A program made the position numbers and the translations under genes. Of a stretch of 64,000 nt of DNA, positions 29,884 to 42,935 are shown in pieces (position 1 is the stretch's first letter; each line of letters begins with the position of its first letter). The stretch covers positions 1-64,000 of the forward strand of contig JAMONP010000067.1 in assembly GCA_027065695.1 (NCBI GenBank), in the 5' to 3' direction. Below the pieces are notes generated by a model. The model did not search any database, had not been told where the DNA came from, and saw nothing but the letters and a program-made list of their open reading frames with translations. This DNA comes from Desulfuromonadales bacterium (lineage in GTDB: Bacteria; Desulfobacterota; Desulfuromonadia; Desulfuromonadales; BM103).

Positions 29884-30510
29884 TTATTTCTCAATAGTCG
29901 CCAGCTTTATTGCCAGACCGACAAAGACGGTGCCGGCGATCCAGTTCATAACCTGCTGTGCGCGCATGGAACGGTTGAGCCAGTCGCCCAAGGCACCACC
30001 AACCATGGCAACCGCACCAAAAACCAGAACCGTTGCTACTATGAATATGCACCCCATGGAAATCATCTGCAGACTTATGGAGCCACGTTCCGGGTCGGCA
30101 AACTGTGGCAGGAAGGCCAGGAAAAAGACCGACACTTTCGGGTTGGTAACGTTCATGATGATGCCACGTCGGTAGAGTGCCCCCAGGCTCTTCTGCTGAC
30201 CTCCATTCATGTGAATCTGTTCTGGTGAGGCACGAAAAATTTGCCAGGCCAGGTAGAGCAGGTAGCTGGCGCCAATGACTTTCAGGAGTGTGAAAGCAAA
30301 GGCCGACGCCTGGAAGATGACTGCGACTCCGAAAGCGACGGCTCCGGTGTGTACGAGCAAACCAGTACACAAGCCGAACATGACAACCAGGCCGGAAAGT
30401 TTGCCGTGCAGGGCCGATTGTGTCAGGACAAAGACATTGTCAGGGCCTGGAGCAATAGCCAGCAATGCAGAGGCAAGAAAGAAAGTTGAAAAAGTTTCGA
30501 TCGACAGCAT
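29884..30510 (-). CDS. LysE/RhtB family amino-acid exporter
   Basis: 208 aa with six hydrophobic segments. ALLAIAPGPDNVFVLTQSALHGKLSGL at the N-terminus is the LysE-superfamily signature (PGP), and NVTNPKVSVFFLAFLPQF near residue 120 is the second conserved block (NPK). Proteins of this type export homoserine, threonine, leucine or related amino acids by proton antiport; which one cannot be read from the sequence. It starts 7 bp after the histidine kinase stop in the same direction, so the pair may share a transcript. Confidence 0.9.
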   Translation of the reverse strand: MLSIETFSTFFLASALLAIAPGPDNVFVLTQSALHGKLSGLVVMFGLCTGLLVHTGAVAFGVAVIFQASAFAFTLLKVIGASYLLYLAWQIFRASPEQIHMNGGQQKSLGALYRRGIIMNVTNPKVSVFFLAFLPQFADPERGSISLQMISMGCIFIVATVLVFGAVAMVGGALGDWLNRSMRAQQVMNWIAGTVFVGLAIKLATIEK

Positions 30511-34549: not shown

Positions 34550-35725
34550 TCAGAAGAGATCTTTAAGCCAGCCGAAGGCAACCATGGTACCGATGGCTGA
34601 ACCGAGGGAAGAGAGGAAGAAGACCAGCAGGACTCTGGTCAGACGGTTGCGCCACCAGCCGCTTAGCTTGGCGATGTCCTCCGAGACCCTCTCCATGTCG
34701 CTGACTTTTGGCGGAGCGACATAGGCCTGAACCATGCCGGTAACGAAACCGGCGCCGATCGTCGGGTTGAGTGAGGTGATCGGTGCGGCTATAAAGGCTG
34801 CCAGAATTGTCAGCGGGTGGCCCAGAGCAATCAATGCCCCTAATGCAGAGAGAACACCGTTGGCCAGAATCCACGCCACAGCAGCGTCAGCCATCTGTTG
34901 AGTATTCCCAGTCATAAATCCCGCGATAAACAACCCCACTACAATAGCTGGTATCAGCCACGGCAGCAATTTTGAGAGCGCAGTCTTTTCAGGAATGATA
35001 GAAAGCTCGTTGATTTCCTCGGCGGTAAATGTCTGCCCCAATTTTTTGAGAATACCCGGCATGTGAGCCGCGCCTACAATTGCAACGACCTTATCACCAG
35101 GTGCTTGCCTGATGAGGTTGGCCATATAAGTGTCACGCTCATCTACCAGGATCGTTTTAACTGTTGGCAGAACATCCGACATCTCGTCCAGCATGGCAGA
35201 GAGAGTGTCGGTCTGGCGCAGTTTGGCGAGTTCCTCCTCATCGATTTTCTGAGAGTCGAACATGCTGGCCAGCAGAGTGGAAAACAGGGTCATTTTCTTC
35301 CAGAAGCCAGCCTTGCGCCAGGCCCTCAGCAAGGTCGTGCGGATTTCACGATCGACCAGTTGTAGATCTTTACCGAGTTCCTCGGCAGCCTCAGCTGCTG
35401 CAGCCAGTTCAGCACCGGGTTTAACACCTGTTTGCAGCCCCATGCGTTTTTGAAACGAGGACAGGGCCAAGTTAGCTAGTAAAAAGGGTGCTTGCCCCTT
35501 TTTAATAATCTGGACCAGATTGAGTGATTCCCATTGTCTGGGGTTGCGTAATGCTTGGTAACGCTGCTCGTCCAACTCCACGCAGACAGTATCTGGATTT
35601 TCATCCTGAATGACCGCCTTGACAGTATCAACAGAGTCCTGGGAGATATGTGCAGTACCAACCAGAACATATTCCTGATCATCAATGGTTATGCGATGTA
35701 TGTCGGCATTCTCAATAGTACTCAT
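34550..35725 (-). CDS. TraB/PrgY (GumN-like) domain membrane protein
   Basis: 391 aa from ATG 35725 (AAGG 6 bases upstream); the frame extends through the 6S RNA region to 35791 but without support. YVLVGTAHISQDSVDTV near residue 15, DTVCVELDEQRYQALR near 45, and VVAIVGAAHMPGI near 211 are the two GxxH/E motifs of the TraB-PrgY Tiki-like metalloprotease superfamily. About five hydrophobic segments fill residues 255-390. PrgY of Enterococcus inhibits a pheromone; the bacterial role is otherwise unclear. It directly follows the 6S RNA and its terminator. Confidence 0.88.
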   Translation of the reverse strand: MSTIENADIHRITIDDQEYVLVGTAHISQDSVDTVKAVIQDENPDTVCVELDEQRYQALRNPRQWESLNLVQIIKKGQAPFLLANLALSSFQKRMGLQTGVKPGAELAAAAEAAEELGKDLQLVDREIRTTLLRAWRKAGFWKKMTLFSTLLASMFDSQKIDEEELAKLRQTDTLSAMLDEMSDVLPTVKTILVDERDTYMANLIRQAPGDKVVAIVGAAHMPGILKKLGQTFTAEEINELSIIPEKTALSKLLPWLIPAIVVGLFIAGFMTGNTQQMADAAVAWILANGVLSALGALIALGHPLTILAAFIAAPITSLNPTIGAGFVTGMVQAYVAPPKVSDMERVSEDIAKLSGWWRNRLTRVLLVFFLSSLGSAIGTMVAFGWLKDLF

Positions 35726-35745
35726 AACGGCCTTTCGAACTAAAC

Positions 35746-35771
35746 AAAAAGACGCCGGGTTTCCCGACGTC
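35746..35771 (-). terminator. Intrinsic terminator of the 6S RNA transcript
   Basis: On the minus strand GACGTCGGG and CCCGGCGTC pair around an AAA-type loop with one G-T wobble, followed by five T (35750-35746). It lies between the 3' end of the 6S RNA and the TraB start codon at 35725. Confidence 0.8.
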
Positions 35772-35780
35772 TTCTCTATT

Positions 35781-35959
35781 GCTCTCCACACCTGTCGTGG
35801 GTTCGTGGCCTCACGACGACGACCAACTAAGTGGGTGGGACTGTGAACGCTTCAGGCGTCCCGCTCCGCGACGGGCTTGCACACCACGCTCACAAGGAAC
35901 CTTCCCGATAAAAATATATTCCGCGTGGGCATAGCAACCTCACCTACAGGGCAGAGAGC
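35781..35959 (-). ncRNA. ssrS: 6S RNA (SsrS)
   Basis: On the minus strand, 5' GCTCTCTGCCCTGT (35959-35946) pairs with 3' ACAGGTGTGGAGAGC (35795-35781) as the closing stem of a 179-nt RNA, the usual 6S size. The apical part matches the best conserved 6S arm: GTGGTGTGCAAGCCCG, a short loop, CGGGACGCCTGAAG, compared with GTTGGTGAGCATGCTCGG and CCGAGAAGCCTTAA in E. coli 6S. The region codes no protein and ends in a terminator. 6S RNA mimics an open promoter and sequesters the housekeeping sigma RNA polymerase in stationary phase. RNase P, tmRNA and SRP RNA were considered and lack their hallmark motifs. Confidence 0.8.
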
Positions 35960-36064
35960 AGAGTTGATGAATCAATGCGTTTTCAGTATAGGAAAAATGA
36001 CGCTGCAACTCAAGAAGAAACCTGTCTGCATAACAGCGAAGGCTTAAAAAGATTGCAGGTGGCT

Positions 36065-39828: not shown

Positions 39829-39895
39829 TATAGATAAAATGAAATAATTAGTCGATTACCATTGACAAAGGGAATGTTGCTAAATTACTCTGTCA

Positions 39896-40027
39896 GTCAT
39901 TGAAGGGGAGTAGCAACCGGTGGGAGACACTACCGGCCCGCGATACGTCAATACGGTGGTCATCCACCCGGGCGCGGGGTTGCGACGCTTAAGTCGAAAT
40001 CTGCAAGACCTTTATCCAGAGCATGAC
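39896..40027 (+). promoter_or_regulatory. yybP-ykoY (manganese) riboswitch aptamer
   Basis: The outer stem pairs GTCAT (39896-39900) with ATGAC (40023-40027) and GAAGG with CCTTT. Inside are the two invariant strands of this class: GGGGAGTAGC (39905-39914) and CTGCAAGACCTTTATC (40001-40016). Between them are the L3 element ACGTCAATAC (39946-39955) and a GC-rich third arm (CCCGGGCGCGGGG). The class binds Mn2+ and normally switches genes on at high Mn2+. It sits 68 bp before the htpX start and must control htpX and probably the antiporter that follows. Confidence 0.85.
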
Positions 40028-40043
40028 AACATGCCAAGGGTAG

Positions 40044-40094
40044 AGGTCTTTTCTTTTACCTGCGGCGTAACCAACGCGTATGGAGGTAAAAGAA
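40044..40094 (+). promoter_or_regulatory. Riboswitch expression platform: hairpin masking the htpX ribosome site
   Basis: TTCTTTTACCT (40051-40061) is perfectly complementary to AGGTAAAAGAA (40084-40094), which contains most of the GGAGG ribosome site and abuts the ATG at 40095. Immediately before it, AGGTCTT (40044-40050) can pair with AAGACCT (40005-40011), the 3' strand of the aptamer core. The two pairings suggest translational control. Confidence 0.75.
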
Positions 40095-40949
40095 ATGAAC
40101 CACATTAAAACCACCTTTCTTCTCACCTGTCTCACCCTTCTTCTGGTCGCCATGGGCAGTGCCATCGGTGGCCAGTCCGGCATGATCATCGCCTTTCTTC
40201 TTGCCGGTGGCATGAACTTCTTCTCATACTGGTACTCAGACAAGATCGTCCTCAAGATGTACAAAGCCAGGGAAGTATCTGCTGCTGAGAGTCCCAATTT
40301 ATACAACATGGTTCGGCGTCTCGCGCAGCGGGCAAACATGCCGATGCCCAAGGTCTATATCATCCCCTCCGAAGGTTCCAATGCCTTTGCCACCGGTCGT
40401 AACCCCCAGAACGCTGCTGTTGCCGCCACCGAAGGGATTCTGCGTCTCCTCAACGAAGATGAGCTTGAAGGGGTGATGGCCCATGAACTGGCCCACGTGC
40501 AGAACCGTGACACCCTGATTTCAACCATTGTCGCGACTTTTGCCGGGGCTATCGCCATGCTCGGCAGCATGTTGCAGTGGGCTGCCATCTTCGGTGGCGG
40601 CAGGAGTGATGACGAAGATGGAGGCGGCATGCTCGGTAGTCTGGCGTTGGCCTTTATCGCCCCAATGGCGGCGATGCTGATCCAGATGGCGGTCTCTCGC
40701 TCACGCGAGTACCTGGCTGATGCTTCTGGTGCCCGAATCTGCGGCAAGCCGTTGGCTCTGGCCAATGCCCTGCGCAAACTGCATATGGGCGCTCAGGCGA
40801 TGCCGATACAGGAGGCGACTCCAGCTACTTCCCATATGTTTATCGTCAACCCCTTGACCGGTGGATCAATGCGCAAGCTTTTCTCCACCCATCCCCCCAT
40901 GGAGGAGCGTGTTGCCAGGCTGGAGTCCATGGCCTCGAGACTGGATTAA
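40095..40949 (+). CDS. htpX: Protease HtpX homologue (M48 membrane metalloprotease)
   Basis: 284 aa from ATG 40095 (GGAGG 8 bases upstream); ATG 40080 would place the ribosome site inside the gene. Two membrane helices at about 7-45, [26 protein letters not shown] near 86, the zinc motif H130-E-x-x-H134 ([11 protein letters not shown]), two further helices at about 143-200, and [13 protein letters not shown] near 206 with the third ligand Glu. HtpX degrades misfolded membrane proteins. Placement behind a manganese riboswitch is unusual and may mean the protease is needed when Mn2+ mis-metallates or stresses membrane proteins. The antiporter gene follows in 40 bp. Confidence 0.95.
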
Positions 40950-40989: not shown

Positions 40990-42087
40990 GTGGATTCTTT
41001 GACCCTGATTCTTTTCGTTTGTGGTTTCATCGCTCTGATAGGTGGTGCTGAGTTGATGGTCCGGGGTGCTGCGCACTTGGCTAAAGTCGTTGGTATTTCA
41101 CCGCTTGTAGTCGGTTTGACGGTAGTGGCCTTTGGGACCAGCGCACCCGAACTGGGGGTCAGCGTGATGTCCTCCTTCTCGGGGCAGTCAGACATTGCAC
41201 TGGGTAACGTTGTTGGTAGCAATATCGCCAACATTCTGCTGATCCTGGGGCTTTCCGCGCTGGCCGCTCCCCTGGTCGTTTCCAGGCAATTGTTGCGTGT
41301 TGAGGTGCCCCTGATGCTGGGAGTATCTCTGCTGACCTGGGGTATGGCTCTCGATGGCAACATCGGGCGCTTTGAAGGACTCTTGCTTTTTGCCGGAGTA
41401 ATTGGTTACACGCTCTGGGCGTTCCGCCGCAGTCGCCGAAACAACAGTCGTGAAAACCAGAAAACTATTGGCGAACCAGGCGACATGACGGTAAAAGGCA
41501 ATTCACTGGTCAGTAACCTCCTGCTTATTCTCGCCGGGCTGGCGTTACTTGGAGTCGGTTCGAACTGGCTCGTCTCCGGCGCAGTGGCCTTGGCGAAACT
41601 CTTCGGGGTGAGTGATTTACTGATAGGGTTGACCATCGTCTCAGTCGGCACTTCGATGCCGGAACTCGCCACTTCGGTGATGGCGAGCTTGCGTGGGCAA
41701 AGAGACATGGCGGTCGGTAATATCGTTGGCAGCAATCTCTTTAATCTCATGGCAGTGCTTGGGTTGACTGCCGTCGTAGCCCCCGATGGGGTCAACGTCG
41801 CTGCGCAGGCACTGAAGTTCGATCTGCCGGTCATGATTGCGGTCATGGCGGCCAGTATCCCGATCTTTTTCAGCGGCTACCTGATCAGTCGTGGAGAAGG
41901 TGCCATGCTTACAGGTTACTACCTCATATATACCCTCTACCTGGTGCTGAGTGCCGTCGGGCACCAAACTCTGCCGGCATTGAGTGCTGGTTTGGTCTGG
42001 GTGGCTTTGCCATTGACAGGATTACTTCTGGTCATTACCGCTGGGCGCACACTTTACGACCATAGGGTCCGCGCCTGTAAACCTTAA
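40990..42087 (+). CDS. Calcium/sodium antiporter, CaCA superfamily (YrbG-like)
   Basis: 365 aa from GTG 40990 with GGAGG 7 bases upstream; the long open frame before it overlaps htpX. About ten to eleven helices. The two alpha repeats are clear: VVAFGTSAPELGVSVMSS with ALGNVVGSNIANILLILG (about 42-90) and VSVGTSMPELATSVMAS with AVGNIVGSNLFNLMAVLG (about 215-265), each with the ion-binding Glu of GTSxPE and the GNxxGSN motif. The inverted repeats exchange cations, usually Ca2+ for Na+ or H+. Being downstream of a Mn2+ riboswitch and htpX, it is a candidate Mn2+ exporter. Confidence 0.93.
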   Translation: MDSLTLILFVCGFIALIGGAELMVRGAAHLAKVVGISPLVVGLTVVAFGTSAPELGVSVMSSFSGQSDIALGNVVGSNIANILLILGLSALAAPLVVSRQLLRVEVPLMLGVSLLTWGMALDGNIGRFEGLLLFAGVIGYTLWAFRRSRRNNSRENQKTIGEPGDMTVKGNSLVSNLLLILAGLALLGVGSNWLVSGAVALAKLFGVSDLLIGLTIVSVGTSMPELATSVMASLRGQRDMAVGNIVGSNLFNLMAVLGLTAVVAPDGVNVAAQALKFDLPVMIAVMAASIPIFFSGYLISRGEGAMLTGYYLIYTLYLVLSAVGHQTLPALSAGLVWVALPLTGLLLVITAGRTLYDHRVRACKP

Positions 42088-42242: not shown

Positions 42243-42935
42243 ATGCAGGATATTGCCAAACTTATCGCCGGATTCAGGCGTTTTCAAGGGAACTATTTCC
42301 GTGGTGACAATGAGCTGTTCACTCACCTCAAGGACGGTCAACATCCCAAAACCCTGGTGATTGGCTGTAGTGATTCCAGGGTTGACCCATCGCTTTTGAC
42401 CGGGGCTGATCCTGGGGATTTATTTGTCATTCGTAATGTCGCCAATTTGGTGCCTCCCTATGAACCGGACGCTGGTTATCATGGGGTTAGCGCAGCTCTT
42501 GAATATGCCGTTTGCCAGTTGCAGGTCGAGCATATCATCATTCTGGGTCATTCACAGTGTGGAGGGATCGCAGGGTTGATGAACAGTGATTGTGATTGCC
42601 AAGTCGGAGAGTTTATTGGTAAATGGGTCAGATTGGCAGAGCCTGCCAAGAAAAAGGTTCGTGAAGAGCTACTGGATAAATCGGATTTGTTGCAAACCCG
42701 TGCCTGCGAGCAGGCAGCAATTATGCTTTCACTGGAGAACCTGCTTACCTTTCCCTGGCTGCTGCAGCGGGTGGAGGACCATTCCCTCTTTCTGCATGGT
42801 TGGTATTTTGATATTCAACGCGGAGAATTACTCCGCTATTCGCCTGACGCTGAGGCTTATGTTCCCCTGGCCCCGGCCAACAACCATAAAATACATAGTT
42901 CACATATGCCGTTGAAATTGAAGGGAACCGTTTGA
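42243..42935 (+). CDS. can: Beta-class carbonic anhydrase
   Basis: 230 aa. VIGCSDSRVDPSLLTGADPGDLFVIRN carries zinc ligand C42 and the catalytic D44-R46 dyad, and LGHSQCGGIAGL carries H103 and C106. Length and the late EPAKKKVREELLD, RTRACEQAAIMLSLENLLTFPWL segments are standard for the bacterial beta-CA. It interconverts CO2 and bicarbonate in the cytoplasm. GGAGG lies 7 bases before ATG. The 155 bp before it show no terminator, so read-through from the antiporter gene is possible. Confidence 0.95.
   Translation: MQDIAKLIAGFRRFQGNYFRGDNELFTHLKDGQHPKTLVIGCSDSRVDPSLLTGADPGDLFVIRNVANLVPPYEPDAGYHGVSAALEYAVCQLQVEHIIILGHSQCGGIAGLMNSDCDCQVGEFIGKWVRLAEPAKKKVREELLDKSDLLQTRACEQAAIMLSLENLLTFPWLLQRVEDHSLFLHGWYFDIQRGELLRYSPDAEAYVPLAPANNHKIHSSHMPLKLKGTV

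Follow-up and report, generated by a model that had tools for sequence, protein, structure and literature searches.

A manganese-type riboswitch ahead of htpX and a CaCA antiporter gene in a Desulfuromonadales bacterium, with a proposed four-strand relay

TerC proteins are established targets of the yybP-ykoY riboswitch, and HtpX is a membrane protease. In the switches of this class Mn2+ stabilises the helix P1.1 against invasion by the terminator strand, and the metal is contacted and discriminated by an adenosine, A41 in L. lactis and A48 in X. oryzae (PMC6754395). A CaCA protein encoded behind a yybP-ykoY switch, BP3410 of Bordetella pertussis, exports Mn, and when Mn is absent transcription reportedly ends within the riboswitch region, going by the sections of PMC8546581 that deal with this gene. 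Membrane proteases have been brought into contact with manganese at the protein level in B. subtilis. There, HtpX co-purifies with MeeF, according to the relevant part of the report on the TerC proteins MeeF and MeeY (PMC10550928), and the rhomboid YqgP acts with FtsH to protect against Mn2+/Zn2+ toxicity, as stated in the portion of PMC7231995 concerned with that pair.

The leader described here lies within the window, ie the whole stretch of 64,000 nucleotides that was analysed. A preliminary description, made from the letters of the DNA, had proposed a manganese riboswitch with a translational switch in front of htpX and an antiporter gene, and had pointed to both invariant yybP-ykoY strands. 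Direct reading finds the two strands in place, GGGGAGTAGC on the 5' side of L1 at 39905-39914 and GCAAGACCTTTATC on the 3' side of the aptamer at 40003-40016. The aptamer features are listed below.

39899-40016, plus strand: yybP-ykoY-type aptamer with P1.1, L1, P1.2, P2, P3 with L3, and P4 (four-way junction), from the R1 match, the MFE structure and covariation
39902-39914, plus strand: 5' strand of P1.1 and L1/P1.2, GAAGGGGAGTAGC, its columns invariant in 19 relatives
39950, plus strand: L3 adenosine within CGTCA, the equivalent of the Mn-discriminating A41 (L. lactis) and A48 (X. oryzae)

The L1 strands characteristic of the class (GGGGAGUAG... together with ...GCAAGACC or GAGACC) are found at 39905-39914 and 40003-40010, and the letters of the 5' strand of P1.1 and L1 are nearly those of E. 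coli alx, AAAGGGGAGTAAC. L3 contains CGTCA, with its adenosine at 39950; of 112 sites, 109 have GTCA, and two of the remaining three still have CA. When 39901-40016 is folded alone, the four-way junction of P1.1-L1-P1.2, P2, P3 with L3, and P4 is the MFE structure, and the helices P1.1, P1.2, P2, P3 and P4 are also borne out by covariation. For a structure given by hand, 97.6% of the cells in the sequences of 19 relatives are paired and 19 cells carry double changes, a result reached by none of 500 shuffles; sliding the structure lowers the pairing to 32-43%. The leader as a whole (39890-40100) folds with -88.2 kcal/mol (z = -6.4), and none of 200 shuffles was equally stable. The true outer stem is P1.1 (AAGG/CCTT). 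The preliminary description had placed the outer stem at GTCAT/ATGAC, and that part was not upheld: the 5-mers exist (39896-39900 and 40023-40027), but a 5-bp pairing there occurs in 4 of the 48 homologous sites against 2.8 expected, and is not conserved.

The preliminary description had also made its claim depend on a covariance-model search. RF00080, applied to the window at the gathering threshold and at E<=10, gave no match, and none was obtained in the remainder of the genome; at E<=1 there was likewise no match in 12 related leaders or 10 named loci. Read literally, this outcome speaks against the claim. However, in a control on E. coli K-12 the same model missed the proven alx riboswitch (E<=1) and gave mntP 41.6 bits, below the cut-off of 45. 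Because alx is missed too, the result for the window is taken as a false negative and carries little weight against membership. With alx missed and mntP below its cut-off, RF00080 (177 positions) probably under-annotates the class widely. The only match in the window at an Rfam gathering threshold was a 6S RNA (RF00013, 91 bits, 35779-35960, minus strand), located shortly before a same-strand ORF (34550-35791).

A search with the pattern GGGGAGTAGCN{70,100}GCAAGACC matched at 19 places, spread over 13 of 58 relatives, compared with two matches for the reversed control pattern. L1 and L3 are invariant in the alignment of the 19 relatives' aptamers. A covariance model, R1, was built solely from 19 Desulfuromonadales aptamers, the window's among them. 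In the window's own genome R1 matched a single site, that of the window itself, at E = 2e-29 (as one of the 19 training sequences). In E. coli it located the alx riboswitch at the correct place with E = 2.6e-7, placing the leader in homology with an experimentally proven member, and did not find mntP. The recovery of alx, the covariation reached by no shuffle and the retained discriminator adenosine together support the proposed identity: judged from its sequence and structure, the htpX leader is a genuine and complete yybP-ykoY riboswitch of the Mn2+ type, and would bind Mn2+.

Between the aptamer and the htpX start lies a platform of four strands, with the following features.

40005-40017, plus strand: strand 1, either the 3' side of P1.1/L1 or the 5' side of a terminator-like hairpin
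40038-40050, plus strand: strand 2, either the 3' side of the terminator-like hairpin or the 5' side of an antisequestor helix, 2:3
40049-40057, plus strand: U-tract TTTTCTTTT, directly 3' of the 1:2 hairpin
40051-40061, plus strand: strand 3, either the anti-SD or the 3' side of helix 2:3
40082-40097, plus strand: strand 4, comprising the SD (GGAGG), the spacer and the htpX ATG (40095); 40084-40094 pairs with strand 3

Helix 1:2 comprises 13 bp, 40005-40017 with 40038-40050. Part of this pairing, AGGTCTT with AAGACCT, had been noticed in the preliminary description, together with a possible competition between aptamer and platform, and the competition is supported by the fact that strand 1 is common to P1.1 and the 1:2 hairpin. 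In the window the hairpin has a stability of -23.5 kcal/mol (z = -6.4) and is followed by UUUUCUUUU; a stable hairpin with an immediate U-tract is thereby present, and an intrinsic terminator is predicted. Among relatives (n = 26) 98.8% of the cells of helix 1:2 are paired, with two double-change cells. A strong 1:2 hairpin was found at every one of the 48 sites surveyed in the order (z from -2.7 to -11.3), each with 7-9 U among 11 nt where the hairpin ends. A terminator consensus scan of the leader gave no match; the scan accepts only stems without interruption and loops of 3-8, and it was negative because the 1:2 stem contains an internal loop.

Strands 3 and 4 form the SD-hiding helix, in which TTCTTTTACCT at 40051-40061 pairs with AGGTAAAAGAA at 40084-40094. 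The 11 perfect base-pairs reported earlier are confirmed by direct reading (z = -5.2) and can be extended by one or two A-U pairs. In relatives 88.1% of the cells of this helix are paired, with four double-change cells. The strongest covariation of the platform belongs to helix 2:3, where 95.6% of cells are paired and 17 carry double changes (none of 500 shuffles equal this). An outer extension of this helix, formed in the window by 40033-40035 and 40064-40066, co-varies in relatives, for example as GCATC/GATGC, GCCGC/GCGGC and GTCAT/GTGAC. In the related htpX leaders, whose comparison the preliminary description had suggested, the aptamer, the 1:2 hairpin and helix 2:3 are kept, and the SD helix is found in most of them as well as in both nhaA leaders. 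The translational switch that had been proposed is therefore retained as regards the SD helix; it was incomplete in leaving out the terminator-like 1:2 hairpin, and the mechanism lacked helix 2:3, which is the only contact of the SD helix with the aptamer. The sequence and its comparison with relatives show the aptamer, its conserved discriminator adenosine, three platform helices that exclude one another, and the operon context.

The energetics of the two downstream helices were compared. With P1.1 forced, the SD-hidden state of the window has -77.2 kcal/mol and the SD-free state -70.1 kcal/mol. The 2:3 hairpin forms in P1.1-constrained transcripts ending at 40059-40063, and in isolation it equals or exceeds 3:4 in stability in 28 of 30 htpX leaders, the window being one of the two exceptions (-16.9 for 2:3 vs -19.5 for 3:4). 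As the SD helix is the more stable with P1.1 forced, SD release in the window would need kinetic or co-transcriptional folding, and the terminator layer is consequently the firmer claim.

A purely translational Mn2+ switch, in which the 1:2 hairpin competes with the aptamer without terminating and SD exposure alone changes, would be consistent with the 11-bp anti-SD of the window, with the distribution of the SD helix among the htpX and nhaA leaders and with a C that interrupts the U-tract; E. coli mntP has been described as translational (PMC11647493). We nevertheless regard it as unlikely. The hairpin and U-tract are kept in the terC, purE and UPF0182 leaders, all of them without the SD helix, so that SD pairing does not explain the U-tract, and once P1.1 has formed in the window, the SD helix continues to be the more stable option.

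HtpX is a heat-shock protease, and a further explanation is that the SD helix acts as a heat-shock thermometer for htpX, set atop the aptamer and independent of Mn2+. The helix is A-U rich, with U4 beside the SD complement, and in silico it can coexist with P1.1. The same helix precedes nhaA, however (L062, L079), and the covariation between strands 2 and 3 makes strand 3 part of the aptamer relay; a thermometer seems highly improbable.

We consider it very probable that a Mn2+-responsive yybP-ykoY ON switch governs the htpX-CaCA operon through a four-strand relay, of which Mn2+ binding, termination, SD release, Mn2+ export and the proteolytic role are the parts that we infer. At low Mn2+ strand 1 would pair with strand 2, and the hairpin with its U-tract would stop transcription; where a transcript escapes, strand 3 (U-tract included) would pair with strand 4 and block translation. 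At high Mn2+ the metal, bound at the L1/L3 dock, would stabilise P1.1, which would retain strand 1. The freed strand 2 could then pair with strand 3, which would do away with terminator and SD block alike. The operon would supply a protease for membrane quality control together with a CaCA-superfamily protein that probably exports Mn2+. The doubling of a terminator U-tract as anti-SD would be a compact layering of transcriptional and translational control. It counts against the relay that the switch at some sites stands before purE or UPF0182, for which we know of no Mn role.

The two genes governed by the leader are as follows.

40095-40949, plus strand: htpX, an M48 membrane metalloprotease (NF002826, 411.6 bits, cut-off 369; Pfam PF01435)
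40990-42087, plus strand: CaCA antiporter (YrbG/TIGR00367-type) with a GTG start (TIGR00367, 259 bits, cut-off 179.65)

An htpX start at 40080 was replaced by the ATG at 40095, which is conserved in relatives. The antiporter begins 40 nt after the htpX stop, has two alpha-repeats with GTSxPEL and is a homologue of NCX_Mj. No Mn-specific motif was found in it, and its alpha-repeat letters are the same in a paralogue (on C103) that has no switch. MntP and GDT1/UPF0016 are both absent from the genome, which is 99.95% complete. For TerC the sole match, at 29884-30510, falls below the cut-off, and its sequence is LysE/RhtB-like. Given these absences and the single switch site, the CaCA protein is the recognised transporter behind the switch. 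By analogy it is likely to be a Mn2+ exporter, as had been suggested in the preliminary description, a CaCA exporter behind the same class being proven in Bordetella (PMC8546581); because BP3410 is already a proven Mn exporter, the assignment is well supported and is not new. A beta-carbonic anhydrase gene lies 155 nt after the antiporter (42243-42935, plus strand), and carbonic anhydrases are also near switch-linked htpX in L076, L173 and L182.

R1 found 48 sites in 35 of the 136 genomes of the order, and in a sample of the class sites were present in 151 of 277 genomes; neighbouring genes were assigned by tblastn. Within the order, htpX or a remnant of it follows approximately 30 sites. Where the contig allows, the gene after htpX is of the CaCA type in seven cases, TerC in seven, NhaA in three and a P-type ATPase in one, and about seven switch-htpX sites have none of these four next door. 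Sites without htpX lead to terC (8), nhaA (2), purE (2) and UPF0182 (3). The TerC, CaCA, P-type ATPase and NhaA genes at homologous sites agree with a class that precedes metal-transport genes. In L061, L065 and L078 short htpX-like starts lie between switch and transporter, as if htpX had been lost while the switch and the transporter stayed together.

Several other genes recur near these switches. A PurE-like gene follows the switch directly in L055 and L057 and comes after htpX in L150, L151, L156, L163, L167, L171, L176, L180, L182 and L185, in some cases with a beta-carbonic anhydrase or P-type ATPase gene as neighbour. NhaA Na+/H+ antiporters occur directly behind the switch (L062, L079) or after htpX (L063, L069, L076, L083, L136), and such targets may fit the coupling of Mn and alkaline pH reported for alx and mntP. 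Large UPF0182 membrane proteins, found directly behind the switch or within about 800 nt (L088, L092, L093, L227, L229, L244), are a candidate new Mn-related family. At class level, sites in L226, L242, L245, L246 and L249 lie about 400-600 nt before a conserved ORF of about 300-340 aa (MKRHLARAFTLAAAVLFLSVTVLEMSAEARIGGGRSMGSRG...), a possible Mn-switch target.

The range of targets bears on whether the fold might answer to another signal, such as Ca2+, Co2+, Ni2+, Cd2+, or Mn2+ together with alkaline pH, with NhaA and CaCA serving pH and cation homeostasis. Variants of yybP with other ligands are expected by Breaker's group (PMC7266159), alkaline pH acts jointly with Mn on the alx and mntP switches (PMC9603457), and nhaA, purE and UPF0182 are among the targets here. 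The binding-site letters are conserved, however, the discriminator adenosine included, and TerC, an established target of Mn switches, is among the commonest partner genes; we give the other signals only a small chance of being the true one.

Among 80 named htpX relatives, an R1 aptamer is closely upstream on the same strand in about 33, in counts that are not independent because several records duplicate surveyed genomes. The carriers include the cultivable Malonomonas rubra DSM 5091 (L136, in which htpX and nhaA follow the switch), Desulfomicrobium, a Desulfovibrionales MAG and many Nitrospirota MAGs; in Nitrospirota the genes after the switch and htpX are often purE and a P-type ATPase. On this comparative evidence the pairing of switch and htpX has been kept in Desulfuromonadia, Desulfovibrionales and Nitrospirota, ie in at least two phyla. 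The control of htpX and the antiporter claimed at the outset is supported, and the link to htpX is conserved far beyond the window. In the order, HtpX proteins near 55-63% identity to that of the window are mostly without the switch and those at 69-87% are nearly always linked to it, the exceptions being G041 and the same-genus G001. The leader of G001, a sister species, has a platform remnant that aligns at 80% identity to the window platform; it has no aptamer, the anti-SD match is lost and there is no downstream antiporter. In none of the ten other genomes of the genus did R1 find a site.

The retention of the switch before htpX by relatives in at least two phyla suggests a place for HtpX in the response of bacteria to manganese excess. 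A wider and more tentative reading, for which we hold somewhat less than even confidence, is a Mn-responsive membrane-quality-control regulon conserved in Desulfobacterota and Nitrospirota, invisible to the present Rfam model, that joins HtpX to interchangeable exporters. In it HtpX, induced by Mn2+, would clear mismetalated or jammed membrane proteins, the partner (CaCA, TerC, NhaA or P-type ATPase) would export the metal, and several lineages would keep a dedicated HtpX paralogue. A literature search found no Mn riboswitch reported on htpX and no paper placing HtpX in manganese homeostasis; the downstream-gene tables of 2015 (Dambach, Price) were outside its reach, and for that reason the novelty of the broad switch-htpX link is likely but not proven. 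A conserved Mn riboswitch before htpX in two phyla makes the connection of HtpX with manganese directly testable, and the partner genes (CaCA, NhaA, TerC, P-type ATPases, UPF0182) are candidates for Mn2+ export. As an Rfam miss cannot exclude a Mn riboswitch, a whole branch of the regulon may go unannotated.

Compared with the described RF00080 switches (E. coli alx and mntP, L. lactis yoaB, X. oryzae and B. subtilis ykoY), the leader has the same L1 and L3 letters, the discriminator adenosine, the four-way junction, P1.1 as the switch helix and ON logic. It differs in that the target is htpX with a variable transporter, that the terminator, antisequestor and SD helices share strands, and that the current Rfam model misses it. 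With BP3410 it has in common a CaCA antiporter behind a yybP-ykoY switch, whereas there the exporter gene stands alone behind the switch, the pertinent sections of that report mentioning neither htpX nor an SD relay (PMC8546581). As with YqgP-FtsH, for which the account drawn on describes a membrane protease tied to protection from Mn2+ toxicity (PMC7231995), a membrane protease is involved; the links described for MeeF/MeeY and YqgP-FtsH are at the protein level, and the relevant parts of those papers mention no riboswitch on htpX or yqgP (PMC10550928, PMC7231995). As in E. coli mntP, one leader would govern both transcription and translation, but termination there is Rho-dependent (PMC11647493), whereas here the hairpin and U-tract look like an intrinsic terminator.
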